A DNA stretch of 58,070 nucleotides from an uncultured Mycobacteriaceae bacterium (GTDB lineage: Bacteria; Actinomycetota; Actinomycetes; Mycobacteriales; Mycobacteriaceae). Below the pieces are notes generated by a model. That model was not told where the DNA came from and searched no databases. It saw only the letters and a list, made by a program, of their open reading frames with translations. Below, in pieces: positions 27,899 to 45,747 of this stretch; within the stretch, counting starts at the first letter, position 1, and each line of letters opens with the position of its first letter. Location of the stretch: assembly GCA_902826815.1 (NCBI GenBank), contig CADEGF010000048.1, positions 1 to 58,070 on the forward strand, read 5' to 3'. The position numbers were made by a program, and so were the translations under genes.

Positions 27899-28777
27899 GT
27901 GAAGAAACCCGAGCCCAATGCCGTCGCACGCATGCTCGGCCTGCTTGGTGACGAGTGGACGCTGCTGGTGGTTCAACAGGCTCTCATGGGCGTGACGCGC
28001 TATGGCGATTTCCGGTCTCACCTGCCGATCTCGCACTCGGTTCTGTCGAGTCGCCTTCGCTCGCTTTCTGACGACGGCTTGTTGGAACCCCGTCCCTATC
28101 AATCGAATCCGCCGCGTTACGAGTATCTGACCACTGCTCGCGGCCGCTCGCTGTGGCCGATGCTGGTTTCGATCTGGGACTGGGAACAGCGCTGGGTTCC
28201 TGAACACACCGGCGACTTGCCGCGGATGCACCACACCGTGTGCGACGAGGACTTCGTTCCGCGTGTCACCTGCCGCTCATGCACTGAACCGGTCAGTGAG
28301 AAAGACCTCGTCGCGCAGTGGGGTCCGAGCGGCTCGTGGGCGCGGTCGGTGCCCGCTGCCGGGAACCGGCGACGATCCGCATCGGGCCAGGCTGGGCTTT
28401 TCCCGCAGACGATGACGGTGCTCGGCAACAGGTGGGCGTTCGCGATTCTGGTCGCGGCGTTCGTAGGGGTCAGCCGGTTCACCGACCTTCAGAGGCAGCT
28501 CTCCGCACCGCCGGGGTCCATCGCAGACCGGCTGTCGATCTTCAGGGTGAACGGTGTGCTGGAGGCCGCGCACCATCGCTATCGCCTCACGGAGAAGGGC
28601 CGTGACCTGTTCCCCGTGTTGATAACGGCGCTGCAGTGGGCGCAGCGATGGTTCGACACACCCGAAGGACCCGCGGTGGAGTTGACTCACACAGCGTGCG
28701 GCGAGCGGTTCACCGCGGTGATGACCTGCGGCCGGTGCGCCGGGCCGCTGCGCGGTTCAGAGATCTCTGCGGTCTAG
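27899..28777 (+). CDS. HxlR-family transcriptional regulator with two winged-helix domains
   Basis: A 292-residue protein whose GTG start abuts the carotenoid oxygenase stop. Two HxlR domains are visible: residues 5-105 (ARMLGLLGDEWTLLVVQQALMG; HSVLSSRLRSLSDDGLLEP) and about 150-260 (FPQTMTVLGNRWAFAILVAAFVGVSRF). Each ends with a short Cys pair segment (CRSC; CGRC), possibly a zinc or redox site. HxlR proteins often respond to aldehydes, oxidants or aromatic compounds. It may control the carotenoid oxygenase/thiolase genes upstream. A decayed paralogue lies at 32973. Confidence 0.87.
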   Translation: MKKPEPNAVARMLGLLGDEWTLLVVQQALMGVTRYGDFRSHLPISHSVLSSRLRSLSDDGLLEPRPYQSNPPRYEYLTTARGRSLWPMLVSIWDWEQRWVPEHTGDLPRMHHTVCDEDFVPRVTCRSCTEPVSEKDLVAQWGPSGSWARSVPAAGNRRRSASGQAGLFPQTMTVLGNRWAFAILVAAFVGVSRFTDLQRQLSAPPGSIADRLSIFRVNGVLEAAHHRYRLTEKGRDLFPVLITALQWAQRWFDTPEGPAVELTHTACGERFTAVMTCGRCAGPLRGSEISAV

Positions 28778-28907: not shown

Positions 28908-29354
28908 GTGCTTCGTTTTGATCCGTTCAGTGACCTTGATGCTCTGACCCGGGGCCTGTTGACCAGCCAGACCGGATCGAGTCGCACCCCACGGTTCATG
29001 CCGATGGATCTGTGCAAAATCGATGACCACTACGTGTTGACCGCCGATCTGCCCGGCATCGACCCGGGTTCGGTCGACGTCGATGTCGACAACGGCAACC
29101 TGACGATCTCGGCGCACCGCACCGCACGTAGCGACGATTCGGTTCAGTGGCTGACCAACGAACGCTTCTTCGGCAGCTACCGGCGCCAGCTATCGCTCGG
29201 CGAGGGCGTGGACACCACCGCGATCTCCGCGACGTATGAGAACGGAGTGCTCACGGTGACCATCCCGATGGCCGAACGGGCGAAGCCCCGCAAGATCGAC
29301 ATCGCGCACGGCGGCGGGCAGAAGAGAATTCCAACCACCGTCGACGCCGAATAG
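28908..29354 (+). CDS. Hsp20/alpha-crystallin family small heat-shock protein
   Basis: A 148-residue small chaperone with a GTG start after a strong AGGAGGTG site. The alpha-crystallin domain spans about residues 35-130 (MDLCKIDDHYVLTADLPGIDPGSVDVDVDNGNLTI in pieces; ENGVLTVTIPMAE is the conserved C-terminal motif). It holds unfolded proteins in oligomers until refolding. CIRCE control upstream and a strong terminator downstream make it a stand-alone heat-shock gene. It resembles the mycobacterial Acr2 type more than the hypoxic HspX. Confidence 0.9.
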   Translation: MLRFDPFSDLDALTRGLLTSQTGSSRTPRFMPMDLCKIDDHYVLTADLPGIDPGSVDVDVDNGNLTISAHRTARSDDSVQWLTNERFFGSYRRQLSLGEGVDTTAISATYENGVLTVTIPMAERAKPRKIDIAHGGGQKRIPTTVDAE

Positions 29355-29371: not shown

Positions 29372-29420
29372 CTGCGGTCAGATCGCACAAGCTCGTATGT
29401 GCGATCTGGCCGCAGGTTTT
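29372..29420 (+). terminator. Rho-independent terminator of hsp20
   Basis: An 18-bp stem (29372-29389 with 29398-29415, one G-T pair) and an 8-base loop followed by GTTTT. This is the best canonical terminator in the window. Confidence 0.88.
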
Positions 29421-29504
29421 CGTGTACACCTACGCGCAGTCTCAACACAGATCTACGCGTCTGTGCTGACGTTTGCGGCCTGTGCTCGTCGCAAGCTGGT
29501 TAGC

Positions 29505-32500
29505 ATGAGCGAACTTGACACGGCCATGCTGAACTGGAGCGATCTGGGCGTGAACGACCTGGTACCGACGGGAACCGTGACGCTGCTGTTGGCAGACGTC
29601 GAGGGCTCGACACGGCTATGGGAAGCCCAGGCCGAGGAGATGACCGCCGCCTTCGCGAACCTCGACCATGTTCTGGCCGCACTGGTGCCGGACCATCGCG
29701 GAGTGCGGCCAATCGAACAGGGTGAGGGCGACAGCTTCGTCATCGCCTTCGGCCGCGCCAGCGACGCTGTGGCGTGCGCACTGGAGCTGCAGCGTGCACC
29801 GCTGGCGCCGATCAAGCTGCGCATCGGCCTTCACACCGGCGAAGTGCAGCTTCGCGATGAGTCCAACTACATTGGGCCCACGATCAACCGCACCGCACGC
29901 ATTCGCGATTTGGCGCACGGGGGTCAGACAGTATTATCGGGCACCACAACAGATTTGGTGTGTGATCGGCTACCAGATGATGCGTGGCTGGCCGAACTCG
30001 GCACCCACCCCGTTCGTGACATGCCCCGGCCCGAACGAGTCGTGCAAATATGCCACCCCGACATCCGCAACGAGTTTCCACCGCTGCGAACCGCCAAAAC
30101 CGTCCGCTCTAACAATCTTCCGGCGCAATTGACGACCTTCGTCGGGCGGCTCGGGCAGGTCGACGAAGTACGCCGACTTCTGCTCGACAACCGGCTGATG
30201 ACCCTTACCGGGGCAGGGGGCGCGGGTAAGACACGGCTTTCCGTCGAGGTGGCATCTCAGGTCTCCGACGAATTCTCAGACGGCGTGTGGTGGGTCGACC
30301 TCGCGGCGATCGCTGATCCCCTCGTCGTCTCCTTGACCATCGCCAGGACTCTAGGGCTGCCAGACCAGGCTGGCAGGACGCCGCTGGAAACGGTGCGGCG
30401 GTTCATCGGCGACCGGCAAATGCTTCTACTGCTGGACAATTGCGAACATCTGCTGGACACGTGCGGTGATGTGATCACTCGCCTGTTGAACGGCTGTCCG
30501 CGGTTGACGATCCTGGCTACCAGTCGAGAACCGATTTCAGTGTCAGGTGAGGTCACGTGGCGCGTCCCCTCGCTTTCACTGCGTGACGAGGCCGTCGCGC
30601 TGTTCACCGATAGAGCCCTGCGCGCACGGCCCACTTTCCACGCCACCGGCGACGATATCGATCTGGTGGCTGATATCTGCCAGCGACTCGACGGAATGCC
30701 CCTTGCGATCGAATTGGCTGCCGCACGCGTGCGCGCGCTGTCGTTGCGGCAGATCGCCGACAGTCTGCACGACAGATTCCGTCTCCTGACGGGTGGCGCC
30801 AGGAACACCATGCGACGCCAGCAGACGTTGCGGGCCTCAGTGGACTGGTCTCACGCGCTGTTGACCGAAGCGGAGCAGGTCCTGTTTCGCAGACTCGGTG
30901 TGTTCATGGACGGATTCGACCTCGACGGCGCGCGCGCTGTGGCCGCAACGAGTGAGGCCGAGCAGTTCCAGATTCTCGACCAGCTCAGCCTGCTCGTCGA
31001 CAAATCGCTGGTCGTCGCCGACGAAGAGTCGGACACCATGCGCTATCGCCTACTCGAAACCGTCCGCCAGTACGCGCTGGAAAAGCTCGCCGAGTCAGGT
31101 GAAGCCAGCGAGATGCGCAATCGCCACCGTGACCACTACGTCGCATCCGCCGTCGAACTCGAAGGCGAGGAGCTAGTCGGTTGGGCTGAACGGGAAACCG
31201 GCAACCTACTCGCGTCGCATGCGTGGAGCATCGACTGCGCGGAGTTCGAGCCCGCGCTGCGATTGGTTTCGGCACTGCAACGGCTTTGGGAGACCCGCGG
31301 CAGGATGGGTGAAGGGATGGTCGCTTTCGATCTCGTCTTCGACGACATGCGCTATCGAGATGCCGACGTCCTACCCGCCGTGTGGGCTCGTGCGGTTGCC
31401 GACAAGAGCGTCTTGGCGGCGTGGACCGGCACTCCTACGAGTCTGGACCGCGCAGAGGAGGCTTTGGCCTGTGCACGTGAACTGGGCGACTCCGCTCTGA
31501 CCGCTTCATGCCTGGCCGCCTGCGGTGCGGCGGCGTACTACACCCCCGACGTAGCGACGATGTACTTGACCGACGCAATCGAGCTGTTGCGGGCGTCGGG
31601 TGATCGGTCGAAGCTGTGTCACATCCTCAGCTACCTGGCCGTCGCAGCACATGTCGCCGGCCGGCCGATCGCATCCCAGCTCGCGGCTGAAGAAGGGCGC
31701 GACATCGCTGAGGCCGTCGGTGATTCGTTCATGTCGCGGCACTGCCGGGTGTGGCTAGCAACCGCGCTGGTGTGGGAGCGCGGCCTTGCCGACGGCGCCG
31801 ACGCGATGACGCGGGCGGTGACCGAGCAGGCGCGCGCTACCGGCGAGCGCATGCTCACCGAGTTCGGGCTCAACGTCGAGAGTTTCTCACTCGCTCACCA
31901 GGGAAAGGTGGCGGCAGCTCGCGCGAAGGTGAAGGAGGCGCACGAAGCGTCGGTGGGAATGGGCGGCTTTCACGAGGACACGGTTTACGCGTTATCGGCT
32001 TATGCAGCGCTTGCTGCCGGGGATGCCGACGAGGCCAAGGCCGCATGCGAATCGGCGATAGCGCACACCGTTCCCAACCGATCGCTGTACGTGAGAGGCA
32101 TTACTCCGATGACCGAGGCGCTACTGGCGTGTGGCGAATTGGCCGCCGCGCGCCGGTGGGCGGATGACACCGTTGCGGTGACGCCCGGCTGCTTCCAGAT
32201 GAACGGATTCGTCGCGCGCGCTCATGTTGCGATGGCTCAGGGCGAAACCGACCAGGCCGAGCAGGACGGTCACGCCGCCCTGGCGCTCGGCGTCGAAACA
32301 GGCGGGCAGCTGCGTGTGCCCGAGACACTCGAGGTCCTGGCGCGGGCGGCCGGTAGCCAGCAGAACCACCGTCATGCGGCGCGACTCTTCGGCGCTGCGG
32401 CAGCCAGCCGCGCCGCGATGGGCGGGGTCCGATTCCCGGTGTACTCGATGGGCTACGAGGCCGCAGTCACCGCTACCCGGGAAGCGCTGGGCGATGCCGA

Positions 32501-32789
32501 CTTCGACGCCGCATGGGCGGAGGGTGCGGCGATGTCGACCGAGGAGGCGATCGCCTACGTCCAGCGCGGGCGCGGTGAGCGCAAGCGGCCTGCGAGCGGC
32601 TGGGAATCACTGACCCCGACCGAACACGAGGTCGTCGGTCTCGTTACAGAAGGGCTCGGCAACAAGGACATCGCCGAAAGGATGTTCATCTCACCGCGGA
32701 CCGTGCAGACACACCTCACGCATGTCTACGCCAAACTGGGTCTGGATTCGCGGATCCAGCTCGTTCAGGAGGCCGCCCGTCACGTGTGA
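29505..32789 (+). CDS. Adenylate-cyclase-like / AAA ATPase / LuxR-type regulator (Rv0386-like)
   Basis: A 1094-residue multidomain regulator. Residues about 22-185 are a class III nucleotide cyclase domain: metal-binding Asp31 (LADVEGSTRLW) and Asp76 (EGDSF) are present and the transition-state Asn128/Arg132 pair is kept, but the purine-specifying positions are Gln72 and Asn121 rather than Lys and Asp, as in M. tuberculosis Rv0386. The Walker A motif GAGGAGKT is at 236-243, then an NB-ARC/STAND-type ATPase with LLLDNCEH, a TPR-like region, and a C-terminal LuxR helix-turn-helix (LTPTEHEVVGLVTEGLGNKDIAERM). Start chosen at MSELDTAM, where conservation begins. Signal and targets unknown. Confidence 0.9.
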   Translation: MSELDTAMLNWSDLGVNDLVPTGTVTLLLADVEGSTRLWEAQAEEMTAAFANLDHVLAALVPDHRGVRPIEQGEGDSFVIAFGRASDAVACALELQRAPLAPIKLRIGLHTGEVQLRDESNYIGPTINRTARIRDLAHGGQTVLSGTTTDLVCDRLPDDAWLAELGTHPVRDMPRPERVVQICHPDIRNEFPPLRTAKTVRSNNLPAQLTTFVGRLGQVDEVRRLLLDNRLMTLTGAGGAGKTRLSVEVASQVSDEFSDGVWWVDLAAIADPLVVSLTIARTLGLPDQAGRTPLETVRRFIGDRQMLLLLDNCEHLLDTCGDVITRLLNGCPRLTILATSREPISVSGEVTWRVPSLSLRDEAVALFTDRALRARPTFHATGDDIDLVADICQRLDGMPLAIELAAARVRALSLRQIADSLHDRFRLLTGGARNTMRRQQTLRASVDWSHALLTEAEQVLFRRLGVFMDGFDLDGARAVAATSEAEQFQILDQLSLLVDKSLVVADEESDTMRYRLLETVRQYALEKLAESGEASEMRNRHRDHYVASAVELEGEELVGWAERETGNLLASHAWSIDCAEFEPALRLVSALQRLWETRGRMGEGMVAFDLVFDDMRYRDADVLPAVWARAVADKSVLAAWTGTPTSLDRAEEALACARELGDSALTASCLAACGAAAYYTPDVATMYLTDAIELLRASGDRSKLCHILSYLAVAAHVAGRPIASQLAAEEGRDIAEAVGDSFMSRHCRVWLATALVWERGLADGADAMTRAVTEQARATGERMLTEFGLNVESFSLAHQGKVAAARAKVKEAHEASVGMGGFHEDTVYALSAYAALAAGDADEAKAACESAIAHTVPNRSLYVRGITPMTEALLACGELAAARRWADDTVAVTPGCFQMNGFVARAHVAMAQGETDQAEQDGHAALALGVETGGQLRVPETLEVLARAAGSQQNHRHAARLFGAAAASRAAMGGVRFPVYSMGYEAAVTATREALGDADFDAAWAEGAAMSTEEAIAYVQRGRGERKRPASGWESLTPTEHEVVGLVTEGLGNKDIAERMFISPRTVQTHLTHVYAKLGLDSRIQLVQEAARHV

Positions 32790-32805
32790 CGCCAGCTAGC
32801 GGGGG

Positions 32806-32972
32806 CGGTCCAGGCGGAACTGCAGATGCGTTCGCACCGTTGGCCATTCGACGTCGAGTATCGAATAGACGACGGTGTCCCGCCGGGTCCCATCCGGCAC
32901 GAGTTGATGGCTGCGCAGGATTCCGTCGAGTTTGGCGCCGAGCCGCTCGATCCCCGTCCGGCTGGCGAAGTT
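32806..32972. repeat. 167-bp exact direct repeat, left copy (fragment of acetyltransferase gene 3' end)
   Basis: Identical base for base to 41901-42067. It is the last 56 or so codons of the GNAT acetyltransferase gene (minus strand) and even retains a stop codon (CTA at 32796-32798) at the matching position, after five differing bases. On the right it joins the body of an HxlR pseudogene. It marks the left boundary of the catabolic island. Confidence 0.95.
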
Positions 32973-33434
32973 TCGGAACCGAACGCTGTCGCCCGCATGC
33001 TCGGGCTGCTCGGCGACGAGTGGACGCTGCTGGTGATTCAGCAAGCGTTGATGGGCGCCACCCGGTACAGCGATTTCCAGTCACGCTGCCGATCTCGCAT
33101 TCGGTTCTGTCGAAACGCCTTCGATCGCTGGCCGACGACGGGCTGCTGGAACCTCGTGTGTATCAGACGAATCCGTCTCGCGCCGAGTATGTGACCAAAC
33201 CACTCAGCCGCTCGCTGTGGCCGATGCTGGTGTCGATCTGGAACTGCGAGCGGGCCTGCGCGGCCTGCTCCTGTTCTCGTGACGGCTCTGCAGTGGGCGC
33301 AGCGGTGGTACGACGCACCCGAAGGGCATGCGGTGGAGTTGACACATACCGCCTGTGGTCAGCCGTTCACCGCCGTCATGATCTGCGACCAATGCACCAG
33401 GCCGCTGCGCGGGGCCGCGATCTCGGCGGCCTAG
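32973..33434 (+). pseudogene. HxlR-family regulator remnant
   Basis: Translation from 32975 gives EPNAVARMLGLLGDEWTLLV, matching codon 5 onwards of the intact HxlR gene at 27899, but the start codon is replaced by the 167-bp repeat. A one-base deletion near 33083 shifts the frame (then LPISHSVLSKRLRSLADDGL and SLWPMLVSIWN continue in another frame), and about 430 bases encoding the middle of the protein are missing before the C-terminal VTALQWAQRWYDAPEG to CTRPLRGAAISAA. At least three lesions, so it is not functional. Divergence from the intact paralogue is substantial, so it is not a recent copy. Confidence 0.9.
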
Positions 33435-33537
33435 CTGCCCGCGTCCCTTCGTTCGGTCGGCGGCGCATCGCAGCGCCGAAAGCTCGCCGGAAATTGGGGC
33501 TGGTGCGCCGCCGCAGCACGGTGTACGGTCGCCGGAA

Positions 33538-33554
33538 AGATTATATTATAATCT
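33538..33554 (+). promoter_or_regulatory. AT-rich palindrome before the catabolic operon
   Basis: AGATTATA-T-TATAATCT is a perfect 8-bp inverted repeat about one base-pair centre, only a few bases upstream of the GGAGGAG ribosome binding site (33558-33564) of the first operon gene. Such AT-rich sequence is exceptional in this GC-rich window. It includes TATAAT-like -10 hexamers. It may be the operator for the GntR-family regulator encoded at the end of the island. Confidence 0.6.
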
Positions 33555-33569
33555 CTACGGAGGAGTTTG

Positions 33570-34991
33570 ATGGCCCGCTGGCTGCTCATCGACCGCGGCG
33601 ATGTGTTGGACGCGACAGGCGCACCTCTGGCCCTCGAAAGTTCGATCCTGGTGCGCGACAACCGCATCCATGCAGTAGGTCCGAATGTCACGCATGCGGA
33701 CGTGCCCAGGAGCGAACCGGTGACGGTGGTGGACGCCCGCGGCAAGACAGTGATGCCGGGCCTCATCGACGCCCATTGCCACATGACCTACGGCGAGTCG
33801 CGGACCGAGGAAGAGATCGACCTCTACACCAGCGCCGAACTGCGGACCTTGAAAGCCGCGTTCAACGCCCAGAAGGTGCTCCGCGCGGGTGTCACCGGCA
33901 TCTCGCAACCCGGCGGCAGCTACTACATCGGGGTCGGCCTGCGGGAGGCCATCGCAGACGGCATCGTCCAGGGCCCTCGGATGACCACGGCCGGCCGCTA
34001 CATAACCACCAGCAACGGCCTCACCGACTGGTATCCCGACTCCGTCGGGGTACCAGCGGGATCCATTGGGATCCTTGCTAATTCGTTAACCGAGATGATC
34101 AGCGAAGTCCGGCACCAGGTAAAAAACGGCGTCGATCTGATCAAACTGGCCGACAGTCCCTACGGCAACTACCAGGCCTTCACCGACGACGAGCTCAAGG
34201 CTGTCGCCGACCTCGCCCACCAACTCGGCAAGCAGGTGACCATTCATGCCAGGGGCTCTGCCGAGGTCGGTGCCGCCAACGCGGCGGGTATCGACTGGAT
34301 CATGCACGGCAACATGATGACCGACGAGGTGATCGCCGACCTCGCCGCGCGCGGGACACCGCTGGTCCCGACACTGTTGCTGCTGGCGAACATCGTCGAC
34401 TGGGGAGACGCTGTCGGCGCACCAGTCGACCTGCGCGACGGAATGGCGCGCACACTGGACAAGACCGCCGACTCACTGCACCGCGCCCATGCGGCGGGCG
34501 TGTCGTTCGTGATGGGTACCGACAGCGGATTCTCGGTGAACCCCTACGGCGAGTGGCACGCACGCGAACTCGAACTGCTGATGACCTACGCGGGGCTTTC
34601 GGCCATGGAAGCCGTCCAGGCCGCAACCCGCAACGCGGCCGTGACGCTGAACCTCGAGGGCCAGATTGGCACCCTCGTGCCGGGGGCCATCGCCGATATC
34701 CTTGTGGTGGAGGGCAATCCGCTCGACGACATCCGCGTCCTCCAGGACAAGCGCCGTATCGAGATCGTGATCCAGGACGGTCAACCCGTCTCGTTCAACG
34801 AAGAGGCGCTCGCCCGTCGTTGGCCCCACGAGCGCGGGCAGACTTACTCCACGAGCGACCTCACCTATGAGTTGATCAATGGCGATGACGAGAGCCGAGG
34901 GCAACCGTCGATTCCGGACTGGGAACCGGAGCATGCGATGGATATCGTCCGCACCGTTCAGGTCCGCGAGCGCGTCGGTGAGCATGACTAG
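33570..34991 (+). CDS. Amidohydrolase-superfamily metal-dependent hydrolase
   Basis: A 473-residue amidohydrolase. The N-terminal metal motif is DAHCHMTYGE (HxH, about residues 69-71), with further metal ligands in TIHARGSAEVG and MHGNMM and the catalytic Asp in MGTDSGF. The pattern fits the imidazolonepropionase/aryl-dipeptidase-like branch that acts on cyclic amides or N-acyl compounds. The ATG is placed after a good GGAGGAG site. It is the first gene of an eight-gene operon; the next start overlaps its stop by eight bases. The substrate is unknown, but the linked flavin hydroxylase suggests a ring compound. Confidence 0.85.
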   Translation: MARWLLIDRGDVLDATGAPLALESSILVRDNRIHAVGPNVTHADVPRSEPVTVVDARGKTVMPGLIDAHCHMTYGESRTEEEIDLYTSAELRTLKAAFNAQKVLRAGVTGISQPGGSYYIGVGLREAIADGIVQGPRMTTAGRYITTSNGLTDWYPDSVGVPAGSIGILANSLTEMISEVRHQVKNGVDLIKLADSPYGNYQAFTDDELKAVADLAHQLGKQVTIHARGSAEVGAANAAGIDWIMHGNMMTDEVIADLAARGTPLVPTLLLLANIVDWGDAVGAPVDLRDGMARTLDKTADSLHRAHAAGVSFVMGTDSGFSVNPYGEWHARELELLMTYAGLSAMEAVQAATRNAAVTLNLEGQIGTLVPGAIADILVVEGNPLDDIRVLQDKRRIEIVIQDGQPVSFNEEALARRWPHERGQTYSTSDLTYELINGDDESRGQPSIPDWEPEHAMDIVRTVQVRERVGEHD

Positions 34992-35931
34992 CGACGCCAC
35001 TCGGCCAGGGCCGGAAGTACGGACACATACCTGCGACGTGTCGCCCGAGATGTCGCTGCGGGTGCTGTCGGCAGGCAACCGCTTGCAGAACCGAGGCACC
35101 GTCCTCTTCCTGCACGGCGTCGGCGCGCATGCCGACAGATGGACCCAGAGCCTGCGGGCCTGCGCCGACGCCGACTGGTTGGCGGTCGCGCTCGACTTCC
35201 CCGGTCACGGGTACGCGACGAAGGGGCGGTCCCGGTATCTCTCGGTGCCGGGCTTCGCCGAATGCGCCAGGAAGGTGCGCCAGATGTTCGGCGCCGAGCA
35301 CCTTTCCCTGGTCGGGACCTCGCTCGGCGGCCATGTCGCGGCGGAGATGACCGCGGCCGAACCCGCCCTGACGCGACGTCTCGTGCTCATCGGCCCGATC
35401 GGCATTGCCGCGGAGACAATGGAATTGCGCACCCGGATCGCGAATGCGATCGCCGACACCACGCGACAGGGAATCGCGGACAAGCTACACCGTGTCCTGT
35501 TCGACGACACGCTGGTGACCGACGACTGGGTCGACGAGGAATTCGTGGTCAACAACAGCGACGGTGCCGCCGACAGCTTCGCCGCTCTCGCCGACTACTT
35601 CCGCACCGGATACAGCGAGCACACCATCGGAACCAGGCTCCGCGACGCGGCGCCGCGCCTGCCCTGCCTGCTTGTCTGGGGTGCCGCCGATCAGCTGGTG
35701 CCCGCCAGCAACGCTGACAAGGTCAAGCGGCTACTGCCATCGGGCACCCGCACACACCTCATCGAAAAGACCGGCCATGCACCATATTTCGAGCGACCAG
35801 ACGAGTTCCACACCGTGCTACTGGACTTCCTCAACCATGACGATGACCACCATCGGTCGTCGCAGGCACCCTCGACCATGCCCAACAACCCGAAGGAGCA
35901 ATCGATTGAGAGCCGCAACAACCCGGCGTGA
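34984..35931 (+). CDS. Alpha/beta-fold hydrolase (MhpC-like)
   Basis: A 315-residue alpha/beta hydrolase: oxyanion region FLHGVGAHADRW, nucleophile elbow LVGTSLGGHVA (Ser), acid in VWGAADQLVP and His in KTGHAPYFERP. This is the arrangement of carbon-carbon bond hydrolases of aromatic ring cleavage and of amide or ester hydrolases such as RutD and NicD. The ATG overlaps the amidohydrolase stop. An extra basic/polar tail after the last conserved helix overlaps the following gene's start. Confidence 0.85.
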   Translation: MTSDATRPGPEVRTHTCDVSPEMSLRVLSAGNRLQNRGTVLFLHGVGAHADRWTQSLRACADADWLAVALDFPGHGYATKGRSRYLSVPGFAECARKVRQMFGAEHLSLVGTSLGGHVAAEMTAAEPALTRRLVLIGPIGIAAETMELRTRIANAIADTTRQGIADKLHRVLFDDTLVTDDWVDEEFVVNNSDGAADSFAALADYFRTGYSEHTIGTRLRDAAPRLPCLLVWGAADQLVPASNADKVKRLLPSGTRTHLIEKTGHAPYFERPDEFHTVLLDFLNHDDDHHRSSQAPSTMPNNPKEQSIESRNNPA

Positions 35932-36334
35932 ATTCCGAGTTCCGGGCCTACCGGAACCGGTTAGTCACTACACGGATGCCGTGACGGTGGGCGATCTGGC
36001 CTTCATCTCGGGAATGATCGCGCTCGGCGCCGACGGCCGGATCATCGGCAGCGGCGACGTCATCAAACAGACTGAGGTCGTGCACGACTACCTCGAATTG
36101 GCGCTCGACGCCGTCGGTAGCTCGTTACAGGATGTGGTAAAGGTCACCGTGTACCTCACCGATGTCGATGACCGCACACCCGTCAACGAGGTCCGCAAGC
36201 GCCGCTTCGGCACTCCCCGCCCGGCAAGCACACTGGTACAGGTGGCCGCTTTGGTCGCGCCGGAGGCGAAGGTCGAGATCGACGCGGTCGCGGTGATCCG
36301 CCGGCCGGTCGCACCGGAAGCCGACGTCCAGTGA
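35906..36334 (+). CDS. RidA/YjgF-family deaminase-like protein
   Basis: A 142-residue RidA-fold protein. Matching segments are VGDLAFISGMIALGADGRI, VVKVTVYLTDVDDRTPVNEV and RPASTLVQVAALVAPEAKVEIDAVAVI. The start is TTG behind GAAGGAGC; no ATG or GTG lies at the expected place, so it is easy to miss. The Arg that hydrolyses enamines in RidA (usually before PAR) appears replaced by RPAS, so it is more like the catabolic RutC/aminomuconate-deaminase side of the family than housekeeping RidA. It overlaps genes on both sides. Confidence 0.82.
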   Translation: MRAATTRREFRVPGLPEPVSHYTDAVTVGDLAFISGMIALGADGRIIGSGDVIKQTEVVHDYLELALDAVGSSLQDVVKVTVYLTDVDDRTPVNEVRKRRFGTPRPASTLVQVAALVAPEAKVEIDAVAVIRRPVAPEADVQ

Positions 36335-37179
36335 GACTCGGCACAGTCGACGGCAGGGCGGTGCTCGTGGTGGACCGTCGCGCGATCGACATCCATCGAG
36401 CCAGCGAGCAGCGGTTCGGGCCCGCGATGGCCGACATCCTCGATGACTGGCGCGACTTCCTTCGGTGGTACGAACTCCGCCAACCGATGCCGGAAGCCGA
36501 CTACGACGTCGGCCGGCTCGGCCCACCCGTTCCGCAACCGCGTCAGATCTTCGCCGTCGGGCTGAATTACGTCGGCCATGCCAGGGAGACCGGCTGGGAA
36601 CCGCCCTCGGCGCCGATGATTTTCACGAAGTTCGCATCGGCGGTATGTGGACCCGACGAAACGGTCGAATTACCACCCGGCAACGTCGACTGGGAGGTCG
36701 AACTTGTCGTCGTCATCGGCATCGGCGGACACCGCATTGACGCAGCCGACGCGTTGAGGCATGTGGCCGGTGTAATGGTCGGCCAGGACTTGTCCGAACG
36801 TGTGGCCCAGATGCAAGGCACACCACCTCAATTCAGCCTGGCGAAGTCGCATCCGCGATTCGCCCCCACCGGGCCGACCCTGGTGTCTCTCGACGAGATC
36901 CCGCCGATTGACGCGCTGAACATCGAATGCACCGTGAACGGTCAGACCGTGCAGCGCGGTTCGACCGGCGACATGGTATTCGGGGTGCGCGAACTCATCG
37001 CCGCCATCTCGGACACGGTCACGCTGCTCTCAGGCGATCTGATCTTCACGGGGACACCAGACGGGGTGGGAATGGGTAGAACCCCACCCGTCTACCTCGG
37101 CGACGGAGACATCGTGGTGAGCACCATCGAGGGAATCGGTCAGATCACCCAGCGGTGCACGGCAAGGGTTCAGCGATGA
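36331..37179 (+). CDS. Fumarylacetoacetate-hydrolase (FAH) family protein
   Basis: A 282-residue FAH-fold enzyme with a GTG start coupled to the RidA gene. Motifs: IFAVGLNYVGHARETG, PPGNVDWEVELVVVIG (metal-binding Glu pair), GVMVGQDLSER and LLSGDLIFTGTPDGVGMG. The family hydrolyses acylpyruvates or isomerises ring-cleavage products, which makes it a typical late step in aromatic breakdown. The stop overlaps the flavin hydroxylase start (ATGA). Confidence 0.9.
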   Translation: MRLGTVDGRAVLVVDRRAIDIHRASEQRFGPAMADILDDWRDFLRWYELRQPMPEADYDVGRLGPPVPQPRQIFAVGLNYVGHARETGWEPPSAPMIFTKFASAVCGPDETVELPPGNVDWEVELVVVIGIGGHRIDAADALRHVAGVMVGQDLSERVAQMQGTPPQFSLAKSHPRFAPTGPTLVSLDEIPPIDALNIECTVNGQTVQRGSTGDMVFGVRELIAAISDTVTLLSGDLIFTGTPDGVGMGRTPPVYLGDGDIVVSTIEGIGQITQRCTARVQR

Positions 37180-38390
37180 CGATACGAGTTGCAGTGATAG
37201 GCGCGGGAATCGGCGGATTGACCGTCGCCGCCACCCTAGCGGCCCGCGGCGCCGTCGTCGACGTCTACGAGCAGGCACCGGAACTCACCGAGATCGGCGC
37301 GGGTCTGTCGCTGTTCGCCAACGGCCAACGCGTGCTCCACGAACTCGGAGCCCTCGATGGTCTTGCCGGGGTCGCGGGCGAACCCGGCCACGTTGTGATT
37401 CGCGACGGCCTGACCGGTGAGCCGATGGTTGCTCACCCGCTCGGACACCTGGGCTGGTATCGCGAGCAGACGGGCTTCCCCTATCTTGGCGTGCACCGCG
37501 CCGAAATTCTCGAACGACTGGCCCATGCGACCGGTCGCGAGCGGGTGCACCTGGAGCACCGCCTTGTCAACCTGCGCCTGCTTGGAGACGGCGTGCAGCT
37601 TGCCTGGGATCACGGCGGAATCTCCACGGCCGATGTTGTCATCGGCGCTGATGGCGCTCGCTCGACCGTGCGCAGGTGGATGTTCGGTGATGATCGCACC
37701 GTGTACACCGGCAACAGCGGATTCCGCGGCATCATCGATTCGAAACTTGCCCCGTCCCTGGCCAATCCGGCTGACCTACAGTTCTGGGTCAGTCCAACCG
37801 CTCATCTCCTGCATTTCCCGATCACTCCACACGGTGAGCGGATCACCTTCCTCGCCGCGGTCGAAGCGCCGGCACAGTGGCCAAGCGCCGAGGACTGGCG
37901 GGTGCCGACGACGATCGACGAGGCACTTGCCCCCTTCACCGGATGGCATCCGACTGTCACCGAGATCGTCGGCGCTGTACAGCATTCCGAACGATGGGGC
38001 CTCTTCCGGATGGAATCTCTTCCGACCTGGAGCCGCGGACAGGTGACGCTGCTCGGCGACGCCGCCCACACCATGCTGCCGCATCACGGCCAGGGTGCGA
38101 ACCTGTCGATAGAGGATGCCTATGTGCTGGCCTGCCTACTCACCGCCGGTGAGGGTGGTTCGATCGAAGATCGGTTGAGGAGGTACGAGCTGCTCCGAAA
38201 GAAGCGCGCCGACAGGGTCCAGTTGGCGTCGTGGCGCGCCAACCGTCTTCTCCACTTCCCCTCTGATGAAGATCGGACAGAACAGGACACCGCCTTCGCC
38301 AACATCCCACACGATATTCGCTGGATCCATGAATACGACGCTCGCAAAGTAGCCGTTGATGCCAACCTCATTGCCTCACAGATGGATTGA
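37176..38390 (+). CDS. FAD-dependent aromatic hydroxylase (3-hydroxybenzoate 6-hydroxylase/salicylate hydroxylase-like)
   Basis: A 404-residue class A flavin monooxygenase. The ADP-binding motif VAVIGAGIGGLTVAATLAAR starts at residue 5; the DG motif is VIGADGARSTVR; the second FAD motif is LLGDAAHTMLPHHGQGANLSIEDA (about residues 290-312). These enzymes use NAD(P)H and O2 to hydroxylate a phenolic or N-heteroaromatic ring; urate hydroxylase (HpxO) and 6-hydroxynicotinate hydroxylase belong to the same group. It is probably the ring-activating step of the operon. Confidence 0.88.
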   Translation: MTIRVAVIGAGIGGLTVAATLAARGAVVDVYEQAPELTEIGAGLSLFANGQRVLHELGALDGLAGVAGEPGHVVIRDGLTGEPMVAHPLGHLGWYREQTGFPYLGVHRAEILERLAHATGRERVHLEHRLVNLRLLGDGVQLAWDHGGISTADVVIGADGARSTVRRWMFGDDRTVYTGNSGFRGIIDSKLAPSLANPADLQFWVSPTAHLLHFPITPHGERITFLAAVEAPAQWPSAEDWRVPTTIDEALAPFTGWHPTVTEIVGAVQHSERWGLFRMESLPTWSRGQVTLLGDAAHTMLPHHGQGANLSIEDAYVLACLLTAGEGGSIEDRLRRYELLRKKRADRVQLASWRANRLLHFPSDEDRTEQDTAFANIPHDIRWIHEYDARKVAVDANLIASQMD

Positions 38391-39470
38391 ATGCACATGA
38401 AATTACTGACGATCTCCGCAGCTCTGCTCACCGCGGTCGGCCTGACCTCATGTGGCTCGGCCGACTCTCCGCAGGAGGGAGGCCCCGAAAACCTCCGCGT
38501 ACTCCTGTCCTACCACGAAGGCCTCTCCTGGCTGCCCCTGCCCGTCGCCAAGAAGCTGGGCTATTTCGGCGACGACCTCACCCTGAACATCGAGTCCGCC
38601 AACGGGTCGGGCTACGTCACACAGCAGGTCCTCGCAGGCAATGTCGATGCCGGGTGGGCCGGCGCCGCCGACACCATCGTGGCGTTTTCGAAGGATCAGT
38701 CGATTCGGGCGTTCATGTGCCAGCCGCCCGGCCAGCTCTTTCAGATCGTCACCAAGGCTGATTCCGATATCGCACAGATGGCCGACCTCAAGGGTCGCAA
38801 ACTCGGGATCACCGAGAAGGGAGGCGGCGAGGAGCCGATCGTCAATGCCGCTCTCAACGATGCCGGAATCGACCCGAAATCGCCGTCGGACATCACAATT
38901 CTTCCCATCGGCGCAGCTGGCCCACAGACGCTTTCGGCGATCAAGGACGGTACCGTCGATGCCTACGCGTCGAGCTACCCCGACATCATCTCGCTGGAGG
39001 TGGAGGGCCTCGATTTTCGCGTCATCACCCCGGAGAAGTATCAAGGTGTGCCGGGTGACTGCTTGATCACCACCACCAAGGTGCTCGACGACGACCAAAA
39101 GCGGGCGAATATCGAGAAGTTCGCGCGCGCATGGGCCATGGGTGGAACCTTCTCGGTGGCCAACTTCGATGCGGCACTGGCGATCGGCTGCCAAGCGTAT
39201 CCCAGCGAGTGCGAGAATCCAGACTTCGCCAAGGCGTACGTGACCGAGTTCCTCACGCTGTCCAAGGGCGACGGCACACAACCGTTCGGTTACGTCCCCA
39301 TCGAGGACTGGCAGATCACCAACGAACTGCTGGCGCAATCGGGAATCGTGCCGGAAGGACTGGACGTAACCGAACTCGCGGGCAGCGAGATCGTCGAATC
39401 GGTGCAGAAGGCGGCCGATGATTTCGATGCCGAAGAAGTCCGACAGCAGGCTGCGGAATATGCCGGCTAA
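38391..39470 (+). CDS. ABC-importer substrate-binding lipoprotein (NMT1/THI5-like)
   Basis: A 359-residue lipoprotein: signal MHMKLLTISAALLTAVGLTS ending in lipobox Cys21. The mature domain (LSYHEGLSWLPLPVAKKLGYFGDDLTLN; QQVLAGNVDAGWAGAADTIVAF) matches the NMT1/THI5-like group that binds nitrate, sulfonates, pyrimidine precursors, phthalate or riboflavin. It starts on the base after the hydroxylase stop. With the next two genes it forms a complete importer, presumably for the compound degraded by the upstream enzymes. Confidence 0.9.
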   Translation: MHMKLLTISAALLTAVGLTSCGSADSPQEGGPENLRVLLSYHEGLSWLPLPVAKKLGYFGDDLTLNIESANGSGYVTQQVLAGNVDAGWAGAADTIVAFSKDQSIRAFMCQPPGQLFQIVTKADSDIAQMADLKGRKLGITEKGGGEEPIVNAALNDAGIDPKSPSDITILPIGAAGPQTLSAIKDGTVDAYASSYPDIISLEVEGLDFRVITPEKYQGVPGDCLITTTKVLDDDQKRANIEKFARAWAMGGTFSVANFDAALAIGCQAYPSECENPDFAKAYVTEFLTLSKGDGTQPFGYVPIEDWQITNELLAQSGIVPEGLDVTELAGSEIVESVQKAADDFDAEEVRQQAAEYAG

Positions 39471-40269
39471 CGCAGTAGCCGCGGTCCCCACCGACGGGTC
39501 GGCCGCAGAGTCCCAAGGTGTCCGGATCCGGGGTGTCAGCAAGGTCTACGCAGCGCGCAGCGGTGCCGTCGACGCACTCCGCAGCATCGACCTCGAAGTC
39601 AAGGAAGGTGAATTCGTCGCAATCGTCGGGCCAAGCGGATGCGGTAAGTCCACCCTGTTGCACATCGTCGCCGGGCTCATCGAAATGTCATGTGGACGGG
39701 TCGATGTTCACGGCCTGCCTGCCCGTGCGGGCAGGTCCGACATCGGCATCATGCTGCAGCGCGCCGTTCTCCTGCCCTGGCGTACCGTGATCGCGAATGT
39801 TCTGATGCCCGCGGTGATTCAGCGCCGCGATGCGACCGAATCCCGGCACCGGGCCGAGGAACTCCTACAGATGATGGATATCGCCGAGTTCGCCGACAAG
39901 CACGTGTGGGAACTGTCGGGCGGAATGCGGCAACGCGCCAGCTTGGCTCAGGCACTCGTCACCGACCCGGCCGTATTACTGATGGACGAACCCTTCTCCG
40001 CCGTCGACGAATTCACCCGGGAACGGCTCAACATCGAAGTGGCCAGGCTCCATGCGGCGCGCGGACGCACCACGCTCTACGTGACACACAACATCCAGGA
40101 AGCCGTGTTTCTGGCCGACCGCGTTGTCGTCATGCGCCCCAGGCCGGGCGAGATCGAAGAGATCGTCACCATCGACCTACCGCACCCACGCACAGCGGAG
40201 GTTCTCGACCTCCCGCACACGTCCAATTTGACCTCGAACATCAGACGGCTGATCGGAAAATATGTCTAG
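39460..40269 (+). CDS. ABC-importer ATPase (SsuB/TauB/NrtD-like)
   Basis: A 269-residue ATPase: Walker A GPSGCGKST (about residue 62), signature LSGGMRQRASLAQAL, Walker B VLLMDEPFSAVD and switch His in THNIQEAVFLAD. The ATG overlaps the binding-protein stop by 11 bases. The sequence class matches the taurine/nitrate/sulfonate group, consistent with its partners. Confidence 0.93.
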   Translation: MPANAVAAVPTDGSAAESQGVRIRGVSKVYAARSGAVDALRSIDLEVKEGEFVAIVGPSGCGKSTLLHIVAGLIEMSCGRVDVHGLPARAGRSDIGIMLQRAVLLPWRTVIANVLMPAVIQRRDATESRHRAEELLQMMDIAEFADKHVWELSGGMRQRASLAQALVTDPAVLLMDEPFSAVDEFTRERLNIEVARLHAARGRTTLYVTHNIQEAVFLADRVVVMRPRPGEIEEIVTIDLPHPRTAEVLDLPHTSNLTSNIRRLIGKYV

Positions 40270-41101
40270 TAACAACACGATCGTCGAGACCCAGCTCCCG
40301 GCGACATCCACGCTGCCGCGACGACGCTTGCGGTTGGCCGAGAAGAATTCGGTTCTGGCGTTCCTAGCTCCGACGATGGTGCTCGTCGGAGCCTTGGTGC
40401 TGTGGGAGGCGGCAGTGCGCATCGGGCTTGCCAACCCCGTCATAATCCCGCCACCAACCGAGGTGGCCGTCCGGCTCGTCGAACTCTCCCAGGAGGGGTT
40501 CTTCTGGCAGGCCACCGCCACGACGATGACCGAGACGATCCTTGGCTTCGTCATCGGTTCGGCCATCGCCTGGGTTCTCGGCACCTGGGTCGGCATCGTG
40601 GATTGGGCCCGCAAGGCGCTGTACCCGTTGCTGGTGGCGATACAGATCATGCCCCGAGTCGCACTGGCGCCGGTGTTTCTGACCTGGTTCGGGTTCGGTA
40701 TCACCTCCAAAGTCGTGATGGCCGCGACCATCTGCTTCTTCCCGGTGTTCATCAATGTGGTCGTGGGTCTGGAGACCGTCGACAGGGATGCCCGAACGCT
40801 GATGCGTTCGTTGGGAGCCACCAGGATGCAAACGTATCGGCTGCTGTCTCTGCCGTCGTCCATGCCGTTGATCTTCGCGGGGCTCAAGACGGCGATGACC
40901 CTCGCCCTTATCGGTGCGATCGTGGCCGAATTCGTTGGTGCATCAAAGGGAATGGGCGTGCTGATCTCAACTTTCAACTTTCAGCTCGATGTGGCGTCCG
41001 CTTTCGCCGTGATCGTTGCGCTGATGTTGGCCGGATTGGTGCTCTATGCCATCGTCGATGTGATTGATCGCAAGCTGGTGTTCTGGCGGTCGCACACATG
41101 A
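40262..41101 (+). CDS. ABC-importer permease (SsuC/TauC-like)
   Basis: A 279-residue inner-membrane permease with about six spans. The EAA loop that contacts the ATPase is TLMRSLGATRMQTYRLLSLPSSMPLIFAGLK (about residues 178-208). The start overlaps the ATPase stop by eight bases. It completes the importer and is the last gene of the coupled operon. Confidence 0.92.
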   Translation: MSSNNTIVETQLPATSTLPRRRLRLAEKNSVLAFLAPTMVLVGALVLWEAAVRIGLANPVIIPPPTEVAVRLVELSQEGFFWQATATTMTETILGFVIGSAIAWVLGTWVGIVDWARKALYPLLVAIQIMPRVALAPVFLTWFGFGITSKVVMAATICFFPVFINVVVGLETVDRDARTLMRSLGATRMQTYRLLSLPSSMPLIFAGLKTAMTLALIGAIVAEFVGASKGMGVLISTFNFQLDVASAFAVIVALMLAGLVLYAIVDVIDRKLVFWRSHT

Positions 41102-41164
41102 TCGACGGCGGGCCACCGTCACGGCATTATCCAGGCCCCGGCCTCCCCCGATTTAGTATGAAGC

Positions 41165-41878
41165 GTGCCTGTGTCTGACGATGTCCGTCCCTCACGACGT
41201 CGGCAACCCAACAACCGGGGTGTCACCGCATCGCAGCGCCTCGTCGTGGCATTGCGCGAACGGATCCTGGTGGGCGACCTCCGCCCGGGCTCACGCCTCA
41301 TGATCGACAACCTCTGCGACCGCTACAACGTGTCACATATTCCAGTGCGTGAAGCGCTGCGTGTCCTGGAGGCCGAGGGTCTGCTCACCCATGTGGCCAA
41401 TCACGGCACGCACGTCGCCGAGCTCAGCGCGACCGAGATCGACAGTCTGTACGACGTGCGGCTGATGATGGAGCCGGCTCTGATCGCCAGATCGTGCCTG
41501 TCCAAATCGCCTGCCGATATCGACTTCGCACAGAACGCGCTGGACAAGATGTCGGTGCTGGATCCATCGGCGGACGCCGTCGCATTTCAGAACGCTCACC
41601 GCGACTTCCACGCGGCGTTGGTACTACCCGCGGCGACCCCAGTCGCGCGACGTACTCTGGAACCGATCTGGCAGCAGGTGCTGCGTTACCTCGTGCTGAT
41701 GTATCAACTTCCCGATGTGCCGCCACTCGGCGGAGTTCAGCACGAGGAAATCATAAAGGCATGGCGGAGCGGCGACACCGCATGCGCGGAACTGCTGCGC
41801 GCCCACCTCGAGGACGGGCGTGCTCAACTGGCCAAAAGCCTCACCGTCGCCCCGTGGAGCGCACTGACGTCCGATTGA
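41165..41878 (+). CDS. GntR-family regulator (FCD/FadR subfamily)
   Basis: A 237-residue regulator with a GTG start. The winged helix (LVVALRERILVGDLRPGSRL; YNVSHIPVREALRVLEAEGLL) occupies residues 25-90; the FCD ligand domain follows with metal-binding His/Asp residues (ALIARSCL; QNAHRDFHAAL; HEEIIKAWRSGD). FCD regulators bind small organic acids and often control an adjacent catabolic operon. It lies 63 bases after the permease and is the last gene inside the island. Its likely target is the operon starting at 33570. Confidence 0.9.
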   Translation: MPVSDDVRPSRRRQPNNRGVTASQRLVVALRERILVGDLRPGSRLMIDNLCDRYNVSHIPVREALRVLEAEGLLTHVANHGTHVAELSATEIDSLYDVRLMMEPALIARSCLSKSPADIDFAQNALDKMSVLDPSADAVAFQNAHRDFHAALVLPAATPVARRTLEPIWQQVLRYLVLMYQLPDVPPLGGVQHEEIIKAWRSGDTACAELLRAHLEDGRAQLAKSLTVAPWSALTSD

Positions 41879-41890
41879 CGACTCGCGACA

Positions 41891-42487
41891 CTAGCTGTTT
41901 CGGTCCAGGCGGAACTGCAGATGCGTTCGCACCGTTGGCCATTCGACGTCGAGTATCGAATAGACGACGGTGTCCCGCCGGGTCCCATCCGGCACGAGTT
42001 GATGGCTGCGCAGGATTCCGTCGAGTTTGGCGCCGAGCCGCTCGATCCCCGTCCGGCTGGCGAAGTTGAAGAAATGTGTGCGGAATTCGACTGCCACGCA
42101 GCCCAACACGTCAAACGCATGGCCGAGCATCAGCAGCTTGGTCTCGGAGTTGACCCCGCTGCGCCGCGCCGAAGCGGCATACCAGGTGTTGCCGATCTCG
42201 AGTCGGCGGTTGGGTGGGTCGACGTTCATGAAGCTCGACGAGCCGATCACAGTGCCGTCGAGGCGGCGCACCACGAACGTCAGTCCGGTGTCGGGGGCCT
42301 GCACTCCAAGCCGCATGTCCACCCATTGCTCGGCGGTCTGCGGAGACGGCGCACCGGTGAACCATAGGCTGCCGACATCACCGTCGGCCGACGCCGTCGC
42401 GATCTCCGGAACATGGTCACGGGTAAGGGGTTCCAGCGTCACCCAGCGCTGACCGGTCAGCGTCACCGGCTCGATGAAACCGCTCAT
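41891..42487 (-). CDS. GNAT-family N-acetyltransferase (RimJ-like)
   Basis: A 198-residue GNAT protein: VTLTGQRWVTLEPLTRDHVPEI, a central GSSSFMNVDPPNRRLEIGNTWYAASARRSGVN segment, and KLLMLGHAFDVLGCVAVEFRTHFFN, typical of RimJ/RimL-like acetyltransferases. The ATG overlaps the stop of the membrane-protein gene upstream (ATGA). Its 3' end is duplicated exactly 9095 bases to the left, and its stop is 12 bases from the last gene of the catabolic island, so it appears to be the insertion target. Confidence 0.88.
   Translation of the reverse strand: MSGFIEPVTLTGQRWVTLEPLTRDHVPEIATASADGDVGSLWFTGAPSPQTAEQWVDMRLGVQAPDTGLTFVVRRLDGTVIGSSSFMNVDPPNRRLEIGNTWYAASARRSGVNSETKLLMLGHAFDVLGCVAVEFRTHFFNFASRTGIERLGAKLDGILRSHQLVPDGTRRDTVVYSILDVEWPTVRTHLQFRLDRNS
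41901..42067. repeat. 167-bp exact direct repeat, right copy (native acetyltransferase 3' end)
   Basis: Identical to 32806-32972. This copy is continuous with the intact acetyltransferase coding sequence and so is the original context. The two copies bracket about 8.9 kb. Confidence 0.95.
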
Positions 42488-43735: not shown

Positions 43736-44182
43736 ATGAGCGAACTCCCCGATTGGGCGCAGCGGCTCGATTTGTCCCCTCATCCCGAGGGTGGCTGGTA
43801 CCGGGAAACCTGGCGAAGTGGACTGTTGACGCCGCAGTCCGCGCTGCCGCCTGATTACGCCGGCGCACGCAACGCCGGGACCGCGATCCTCTTCCTGCTG
43901 ATGCCCGGCCAGCAGTCCGCCTGGCACACCGTGCGCAGCGCAGAGCTGTGGCTCTACCATCGGGGTAGCCCGCTGGTGCTCGAGGTCGGCGCCGAACACA
44001 ACAGTGCCGCAACATATTTGCTCGGGGCAGACATCGCCGCGGGTGAGCAGCCGCAGCTGGTCGTTCCCGAAGGGCACTGGCAGCGCGCCCGCCCGCGGGA
44101 CAACGAGCCGTCACTGGTCAGCTGTGTCGTGGTGCCCGGATTCGACTTCGCCGACTTCGAATTGGGCGCCCCTAGCGACTGA
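43736..44182 (+). CDS. DUF985 cupin-fold protein
   Basis: A 148-residue cupin_5 protein: LDLSPHPEGGWYRETWRSG opening, AILFLLMPGQQSAWHTVRSAELWLYHRGSPL with metal-binding His, and WQRARPRDNEPSLVSCVVVPGFDFADFEL closing motif. Members resemble epimerase-like cupins; no function is established. The last 11 bases overlap the end of the convergent BKACE-like gene. Confidence 0.88.
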   Translation: MSELPDWAQRLDLSPHPEGGWYRETWRSGLLTPQSALPPDYAGARNAGTAILFLLMPGQQSAWHTVRSAELWLYHRGSPLVLEVGAEHNSAATYLLGADIAAGEQPQLVVPEGHWQRARPRDNEPSLVSCVVVPGFDFADFELGAPSD

Positions 44183-44789
44183 GCAGCTGCACCGCCGCAG
44201 ACACCAACGCGGCGTTGTCGGGAGCGGGTGAGCCGTCGGGCAGCACCAGCGTGTCCTCCATTCCGATCCGCGTCTGCAGACCCCTCGCGCCCGCGTGTTG
44301 CAGCAGCGGCCAACAACTTTCGTTGAAACCGTGCAACAGAACAGGCGCAGGCGATCCCGCTGCCGCCTCAGCGTGAAAGATGCCGACCTCCACGCCGACG
44401 CCCGTCTGAAGCAACTGGCGCGCCAACGGCTCGGAACCGGGCTCATGCCAGTTCACCGACGCGAAGTCGGGCAGCACCGTCCAGCCCTGCACCGTGCGGA
44501 GACGTTCGTCGGGATCCGACAGCGCCCAGAAGCCCGTCGTCACCCCCAGCGGTAGACCGGGCACGGCATGCCGCACCGACTCGACCGCCGCCGCCACGAC
44601 CTCCGGCTGCAGCGAGTCGACGCCGTCGGCGGTCTTGGAGTGCATGTGCACAGCCTTGGCGCCCGCCTGGTGGGCGGCCAGAGCCGCGGCCGCGATCTGG
44701 CCGGGGGTTACCGGCAGATTCGGGTGCTGATCAGGGGTGCGGGCGCCGTTGATGCATGCCTTGAGATGAGTCGCTGGGCTGTTGGGCAT
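44172..44789 (-). CDS. BKACE/DUF849-like beta-keto acid cleavage enzyme, short form
   Basis: A 205-residue protein with the opening KACINGARTPDQHPNLPVTP and metal-binding AVHMHSKTADG (HxH), then a late VGIFHAEAA and GLQTRIGMEDTLVLPDG. These are features of the 3-keto-5-aminohexanoate cleavage family, which splits beta-keto acids with acetyl-CoA. Typical members are about 270-310 residues, so about a third of the barrel is missing, yet both ends look intact, suggesting a compact variant. It follows the frameshifted glyoxalase by 16 bases. Confidence 0.75.
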   Translation of the reverse strand: MPNSPATHLKACINGARTPDQHPNLPVTPGQIAAAALAAHQAGAKAVHMHSKTADGVDSLQPEVVAAAVESVRHAVPGLPLGVTTGFWALSDPDERLRTVQGWTVLPDFASVNWHEPGSEPLARQLLQTGVGVEVGIFHAEAAAGSPAPVLLHGFNESCWPLLQHAGARGLQTRIGMEDTLVLPDGSPAPDNAALVSAAVQLLSR

Positions 44790-44805
44790 GCCTCCATCTT
44801 CGCCC

Positions 44806-45584
44806 CTATTCCAGCGACGACAGGTTGAAGCCCGCACCGGTCGGGTCGGCGACGGCCGCCAGCCGGCCGTACGGCGTGTCCTCCGCGTCGCGGACCACGC
44901 TGCCGCCGTTGTCCGTGACCTGCGCGACCGTCTTGTCGACGTCGTCGCTGCCGAGGAAGAAGCCCAGTTCGACGGCGCGCCTTCGGACAGATACGTCGAC
45001 CCGTCCATGATCCCGACAAGCGCTTCACCGTCGAAACTCGCGGTGCTGTACCGGAATTCGTCGGTGTCGGCAACAGTGTCGACGTGCCAGTCGAAGACTT
45101 TGCCGTAGAAATCGAGCGCCTTGGTGTAGTCGCAGGTGGTCAGCTGGTGGTAAATCGGCGCGCCGGCCTCGCCGAACGCCTCGAAGCCGTGGTGCTCGAT
45201 CGGCTGCCACAGTCCGAAGAACGCTCCCGTCGGATCGGACAGCATCGCCATCCAGCCCTTGTCAGGGACCTCCATCGGCTCGACGGGTTGCACGCATGTC
45301 ACGGCTCCCGCGGCGATGGCCGTCGCCAACGTGATCCTGATATCCGCGGTGTGCAGGTAGGTGGTCCAGCCGTCCGGGCTGTTCCACTGTGGGTCGTTGT
45401 GCATCAGGCCGGCGACGGGATGGCCGCCGGAGAAGGCGTTGACGTAGCCGCCGTACTCGGGTCCGGCGGTCTCGAACGTCCACCCGAACACGTTGCCGTA
45501 GAACTGCTTGGCGCGCTCGAGGTCCGAGGTTGCGAGGTCGATCCAGGTCGGGGCACCTACGGGTGCGCCTTGGCGGGTGGGCAC
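44806..45584 (-). pseudogene. Glyoxalase/VOC-family protein with a frameshift (Rv0911-like)
   Basis: Two vicinal-oxygen-chelate domains are visible: APTWIDLATSDLERAKQFYG (first) and IYHQLTTCDYTKALDFYGKV (second). At about 44965 the frame breaks after EGAPSNWA: one base appears missing from the codons for the expected FFLGSDDVD. The correct ending resumes in another frame (to FNLSSLE and a stop at 44806). In the broken frame translation runs on into the next gene. GTG at 45584 after GGAGAG is the likely start. The rest of the coding sequence is intact, so this is either a very recent mutation or a sequencing error. Confidence 0.85.
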
Positions 45585-45747
45585 GATGGGTTCTCTCCTT
45601 GCACTGGTGGGGCCGGTCATCAAAGCAGACAACCGCGGCCCCTAAAACTCATCGCCATCTCCGCCGAGCTGGGCCCACACCGAAGGTAGGGGAACGCAAA
45701 CGCATGCGACACGCCGCGAAAACGCGTGCATATGCGTCTGCTCGCGC

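Follow-up and report, generated by a model that had tools for sequence, protein, structure and literature searches.

Chromosomal hotspots at which genes are exchanged without an integrase, by homologous recombination at the conserved genes that flank them, have been described previously (Oliveira et al., 2017; PMC5635113). Homology-facilitated illegitimate recombination has been reported as well, together with the integration by a single crossover of linear DNA that has become circular (PMC3240628), and products of one-sided homologous integration have been proposed for the immunity-gene arrays of Vibrio (PMC5361080). In pneumococcus, interchromatid integration bridges sister chromosomes and produces merodiploids that carry a duplication (PMC3784515), and distributive conjugal transfer is known in mycobacteria (PMC4202316).

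Here, we analyzed a window of 58,070 nucleotides, the whole of one contig (C48) in a 6.87-Mb draft genome of 141 contigs, in which an operon has been gained at the 3' end of a GNAT acetyltransferase gene. The genome probably belongs to Mycobacterium, as the GNAT of Mycobacterium sp. NAZ190054 has the contig position found in G367, a genome assigned to the genus of our own. The event clearly exemplifies a type already known, that of the integrase-free exchange hotspot or one-sided homologous integration. As in the hotspots described by Oliveira et al. (PMC5635113), the flanks are conserved, the content between them is variable and no mobile-element gene is found in the cargo scanned, which here comprises the ten proteins of the insert; unlike what is described there, the present locus has an apparently illegitimate junction, a duplicated stretch of 167 bp and a second HxlR gene that is truncated. 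With homology-facilitated illegitimate recombination, as presented in PMC3240628 and PMC5361080, it shares homology at one end, a non-homologous joint at the other and a displaced gene end that was kept, although in our case the process is inferred from sequence and the anchoring crossover would sit at the very edge of the homology. The pneumococcal merodiploids described in PMC3784515 are comparable in that duplications arise where two chromosome copies are bridged, but there they span about 100-900 kb between repeats, whereas here 167 bp are duplicated with foreign DNA inside. Distributive conjugal transfer could have brought the DNA in.

Direct repeat and enclosed genes

Bases 32806-32972 and 41901-42067 are identical over 167 bp, and the identity breaks off at both ends, as computed within the 58-kb window of this draft assembly. 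A preliminary description of the same DNA had reported this repeat, taking its right copy for the true 3' end of an intact GNAT gene and its left copy for an orphan fragment that keeps the stop codon position; the identity is exact as described, the coordinates of the GNAT gene (41891-42487) agree with the former assignment and the stop codon at 32797-32799 with the latter. All exact direct repeats of at least 40 bp in the window are part of this GNAT-end repeat. When mismatches are allowed, it extends to 177 nt at 98% identity (32796-32972 and 41891-42067) and includes both GNAT stop codons. These two are the only sites of the repeat in the genome, as searched with 32700-33560 as query (40 of 88 candidates scored). 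The features of the locus are as follows.

27899-28777, + strand: resident HxlR-type regulator, intact; forms the left border of the variable interval and has an orthologue at the corresponding position in relatives
28908-29354, + strand: Hsp20-like gene, usual occupant of the interval (tblastn to relatives)
29397-32789, + strand: LuxR-type regulator; in the empty site it converges with GNAT (alignment in 11 relatives)
32806-32972, - strand: left copy of the 167-bp repeat, orphan GNAT 3' end, ending RLDRPR* (stop codon at 32797-32799)
32973-33435, + strand: remnant of a second, putatively xenologous HxlR gene, first codons absent
33538-33554, no strand assigned: perfect 17-bp palindrome AGATTATATTATAATCT, candidate operator upstream of the operon
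33570-34991, + strand: amidohydrolase (Amidohydro_1)
34879-35931, + strand: alpha/beta hydrolase; true start probably further in, as homology to Mycobacterium sp. NAZ190054 (L036) begins at residue 46
35930-36334, + strand: RidA family protein, start codon not fixed
36331-37179, + strand: FAA hydrolase family protein
37155-38390, + strand: FAD-dependent aromatic monooxygenase
38391-39470, + strand: ABC transporter substrate-binding protein (NMT1/THI5-like)
39418-40269, + strand: ABC transporter ATPase
40262-41101, + strand: ABC transporter permease
41165-41878, + strand: GntR/FCD regulator
41901-42067, - strand: right repeat copy (167 bp), forming the 3' end of the intact GNAT gene (repeat comparison)
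41891-42487, - strand: intact GNAT acetyltransferase, ending RLDRNS*, right border of the variable interval

While the 167 bp show no difference between the copies, four or five are found in the last two codons, so that the left copy, beside LuxR, ends RLDRPR* and the right copy, beside GntR, ends RLDRNS*, an ending also present in the GNAT of two relatives (L011 and L017). Among the loci compared, the GNAT genes of relatives are at most 86% identical to the repeat, and the chance of finding zero differences over 167 bp at 14% divergence is about 1e-11. The identity of the two copies is therefore neither a matter of chance nor that of an old paralogy left alone.

Between the copies lie the HxlR remnant, eight enzyme and transport genes, and the GntR gene. 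Our family scan (Pfam, NCBIfam) agrees with the preliminary description on the eight-gene operon and its GntR regulator, and likewise finds no integrase or transposase among the ten proteins scanned; no replication or transfer gene was recognized among them either. The best solved relatives of the FAD monooxygenase are tropone 2-monooxygenase and 6-hydroxynicotinate 3-monooxygenase, that of the FAA hydrolase is an HpcE protein, and no ring-cleaving dioxygenase was recognized among the eight operon genes. Judging from these families, the operon most likely imports and degrades a hydroxylated (hetero)aromatic compound under the control of GntR, and breakdown would probably proceed via flavin-dependent attack on a hydroxylated aromatic or N-heteroaromatic compound. 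The palindrome AGATTATATTATAATCT, which is AT-rich and immediately precedes the amidohydrolase gene, has a single match in the window against 0.01 expected, and a similar TATATTATA core is present at the same position in L036, which makes it a candidate operator on which GntR may act.

The GC content of the operon is 0.637, compared to 0.651 in the left flank and 0.669 in the right flank. A comparison of this kind had been proposed in the preliminary description and turns out to be uninformative on origin; GC and GC3 were discarded as a mark of foreign DNA, given that neither contrasts clearly with the flanks.

The HxlR-GNAT interval in related genomes

In at least 11 relatives (G435, G038, G280, G239, G360, G161, G426, G163, G173, G039 and G430), a single alignment spans position 32806 and connects the LuxR end with the GNAT end. 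This is the empty site, with LuxR directly followed by an intact GNAT gene, that the preliminary description had suggested looking for, and the arrangement with the island was not seen in any of the relatives examined.

The interval delimited by HxlR and GNAT is a hotspot of variable content. In a survey of the best 150 GNAT and the best 150 HxlR matches, each of 396 genomes, 117 genomes had both genes, and in 111 of these, our own included, the two are convergent on one contig. The convergent interval measures 2-5,627 bp in the 110 relatives and 13,119 bp here; left out of this range are G282, G216, G208 and G393, in which the genes lie on one contig in another orientation, and G430 and G019, in which they lie on different contigs. 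In relatives the interval contains nothing, Hsp20, Hsp20 together with LuxR, or other genes. The latter are located between Hsp20 and GNAT in G326, G402 and G256 (L109, L110 and L111), and in G256 they include proteins that read, by eye, as a sensor kinase and a response regulator. Four genomes share the nearest GNAT (87%), of which G435 has LuxR and the other three (G203, G230 and G432) have Hsp20 alone. The LuxR gene of our genome is nearest to that of G038 (78%), while its neighboring genes are nearest to those of G432 and G203, both without LuxR; LuxR itself may have come or gone by exchange.

A GntR gene beside GNAT was found in none of the 70 other GNAT loci fetched, several of which come from the same genomes and many of which reach only 1.5 kb beyond GNAT. 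Somewhat speculatively, the HxlR-GNAT interval might constitute a genus-wide, integrase-free cargo slot of Mycobacterium, in which whole operons would move between species as alleles of a chromosomal locus. Through the short perfect repeats left by one-sided integrations such as the present one, ordinary recombination would then be able to amplify the new cargo or remove it precisely. In this regard, the variable interval offers a place to study chromosomal cargo exchange among mycobacteria.

The truncated HxlR gene and the relatives of the operon

The HxlR remnant named in the preliminary description is indeed present, but its kinship to the resident HxlR of the same locus had been missed. 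Of an HxlR gene it retains 274 bp at the 5' end and 148 bp at the 3' end; one nucleotide is deleted, and about 440 bp are absent from the interior. It is a diverged version of the intact gene at 27899-28777 (80-81% identity); its 5' part is 83% identical to the HxlR of G432 and 81% to that of G203. Differences between remnant and resident gene are distributed over the three codon positions as 19/14/49 (p 2e-6 against a uniform distribution), and those between the working HxlR genes of our genome and G203 as 20/13/52. Since the third-position excess is like that of working genes, most of the divergence of the remnant arose while the gene worked, and the remnant is a once-working relative of the resident HxlR. 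Most likely, as this pattern suggests, it diverged in another species and broke later.

In a tree built on separately aligned segments of the remnant, this gene groups with the HxlR of our genome, G203 and G432 (support 97/89), and neither its placement as sister of our own HxlR (p-AU 0.19) nor that as sister of G432 (p-AU 0.12) is rejected. Taken together, the remnant would be a xenologue of the HxlR bordering the same locus, and this speaks for a chromosomal allele of that locus and not for a mobile element; a long-lived working HxlR paralogue in the same genome is also compatible with the tree.

Close relatives of the GntR regulator (E 1e-60) occur in 3 of the 396 genomes of the genus, our own included, and outside our genome they are not at GNAT; in G055, part of a related cluster accompanies the GntR gene, away from GNAT. 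In a scan of named genomes, 23 amidohydrolase loci were found when only close relatives are counted, one of them in Mycobacterium. The nearest operon is that of Mycobacterium sp. NAZ190054 (L036), with all eight genes in the same order at 49-83% identity, but it lies elsewhere in the genome, with GNAT on another contig next to Hsp20, and it has no close GntR, the best relative being 32% identical. The neighbors of that operon are an aminotransferase and a transposase-like fragment; the fragment, located upstream (L036:1686-2006), presumably belongs to an IS630-type transposase.

A plasmid of Rhodococcus rhodochrous BX2 (NZ_CP027558.1) has GntR, amidohydrolase (74%), alpha/beta hydrolase, RidA and FAH genes in a cluster, which differs from ours in that the FAD monooxygenase is replaced by a gene of the 4-hydroxyphenylacetate 3-hydroxylase type, in a divergent GntR and in its location on a catabolic plasmid among IS elements. 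With the exception of this plasmid, plasmid relatives of the amidohydrolase (650 of 650 records) and of the FAD monooxygenase (356 of 357) are mostly under 60%, and a plasmid origin was rejected. No donor genome with the order HxlR-operon-GntR-GNAT was found in these searches.

Origin of the insertion

On balance, we consider it probable that the insert derives from the same locus in a related Mycobacterium and was attached to the GNAT 3' end by recombination and end joining without the participation of an integrase. The cargo is flanked by relatives of both border genes, as is expected of the same chromosomal locus and not of a phage, a plasmid or a transposon. The left repeat copy stops at the base where HxlR homology starts, and, if the donor resembled G432, the GNAT interior and the HxlR start share about 1 bp there; judged against G432, the left joint would thus be non-homologous (illegitimate), with the GNAT interior fused to the start of HxlR. 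At the other end, the donor probably carried the last codons of GNAT, as the right copy ends RLDRNS* like that of two relatives. Given the lack of differences in the 167 bp and the four or five in the last two codons, either the switch between donor and resident DNA lies close to 41901 or later gene conversion removed the other differences.

We propose that a donor piece composed of the HxlR gene, the eight-gene catabolic operon, GntR and the last codons of GNAT would have been inserted at the resident GNAT 3' end by the recombination and end joining of the cell itself. The right joint would rest on homology between donor and resident GNAT at the extreme end of the gene, and the left joint would connect the donor HxlR, starting at roughly the fourth codon, to resident GNAT sequence 167 bp inside the gene. 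As these joining points are 167 bp apart, 167 bp would have been duplicated, leaving the old GNAT end (RLDRPR*) beside LuxR and the GNAT gene intact. This could have occurred in two ways: by homologous integration on one side, the other end being captured on a sister chromosome, or by circularization of a linear fragment through ligation and a subsequent single crossover; the genome itself encodes Ku. The donor, the order of the steps and the enzymes involved are what we infer in this model. A homologous joint at the extreme edge of the homology is odd, and later gene conversion between the copies would look alike. A recent event is plausible, although gene conversion would imitate recency.

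The preliminary description had explained the repeat by Campbell-type recombination. Its horizontally acquired catabolic segment at the GNAT 3' end is borne out by the empty site and by the absence of the segment from the relatives examined, but the exchange through the repeat is the less likely part of this proposal. Integration of a pre-existing circle carrying the GNAT 3' end, by a single crossover within the 167 bp, would agree with the differing downstream ends of the copies, the intact GNAT gene and the empty site of relatives. However, no replication, integrase or transfer gene was recognized among the proteins scanned, and a donor GNAT as diverged as the HxlR remnant predicts many differences, whereas only the last two codons differ; the near-identity of the copies means that a Campbell exchange needs added gene conversion or a recipient-like donor GNAT. 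We regard this course of events as rather unlikely, if still deserving consideration.

There is a small chance that a short-read assembler threaded a 9.1-kb circle or tandem array through the perfect 167-bp repeat, since, with the four flanks paired the other way, a native LuxR-GNAT locus and a separate circle of 9,095 bp would result and the genome is a draft in 141 contigs; against this, the island DNA occurs once in the assembly, and a free circle is unlikely, as no recognized replication gene is found among the ten proteins scanned.

Marginally less credible still is an old tandem duplication of the HxlR-GNAT segment within our genome, in which the operon would later have taken the place of the central part of the second copy, the GNAT ends being kept identical by gene conversion. 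The grouping of the remnant in the tree, with a sister position to our own HxlR not rejected, agrees with it, but the differences in the remnant resemble those of working genes and not those of a decaying copy, and no second Hsp20 or LuxR is present.

Site-specific islands typically sit at the 3' end of a gene, restore that gene and displace its old end. An island of this kind, with the GNAT 3' end serving as attB and its integrase lost after insertion, would account for the direct repeats, the empty site and the restored target gene, but is very improbable here, with no integrase among the island proteins scanned, no tRNA gene in the window, a repeat as long as 167 bp and a relative of the locus's own HxlR as one flank of the cargo. 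A composite transposon was rejected on examination of the flanking repeats themselves, which are GNAT 3' ends and not insertion sequences.

If integration of an allele of the same locus is the correct reading, the locus preserves well one step in which an operon was gained without the help of a mobile element, and both junctions, the empty site and the broken gene of the donor locus can be read. Should the repeat prove genuine, recombination could remove the 9.1-kb unit or increase its copy number.

Two further observations concern other parts of the window. Positions 7819-7891 match the Rfam family hya RNA with 81 bits, against a gathering score of 56.8, and 44172-45632 form one open frame in which a glyoxalase-like protein runs into a second enzyme, the glyoxalase part leaving the frame near its end, perhaps through a frameshift.
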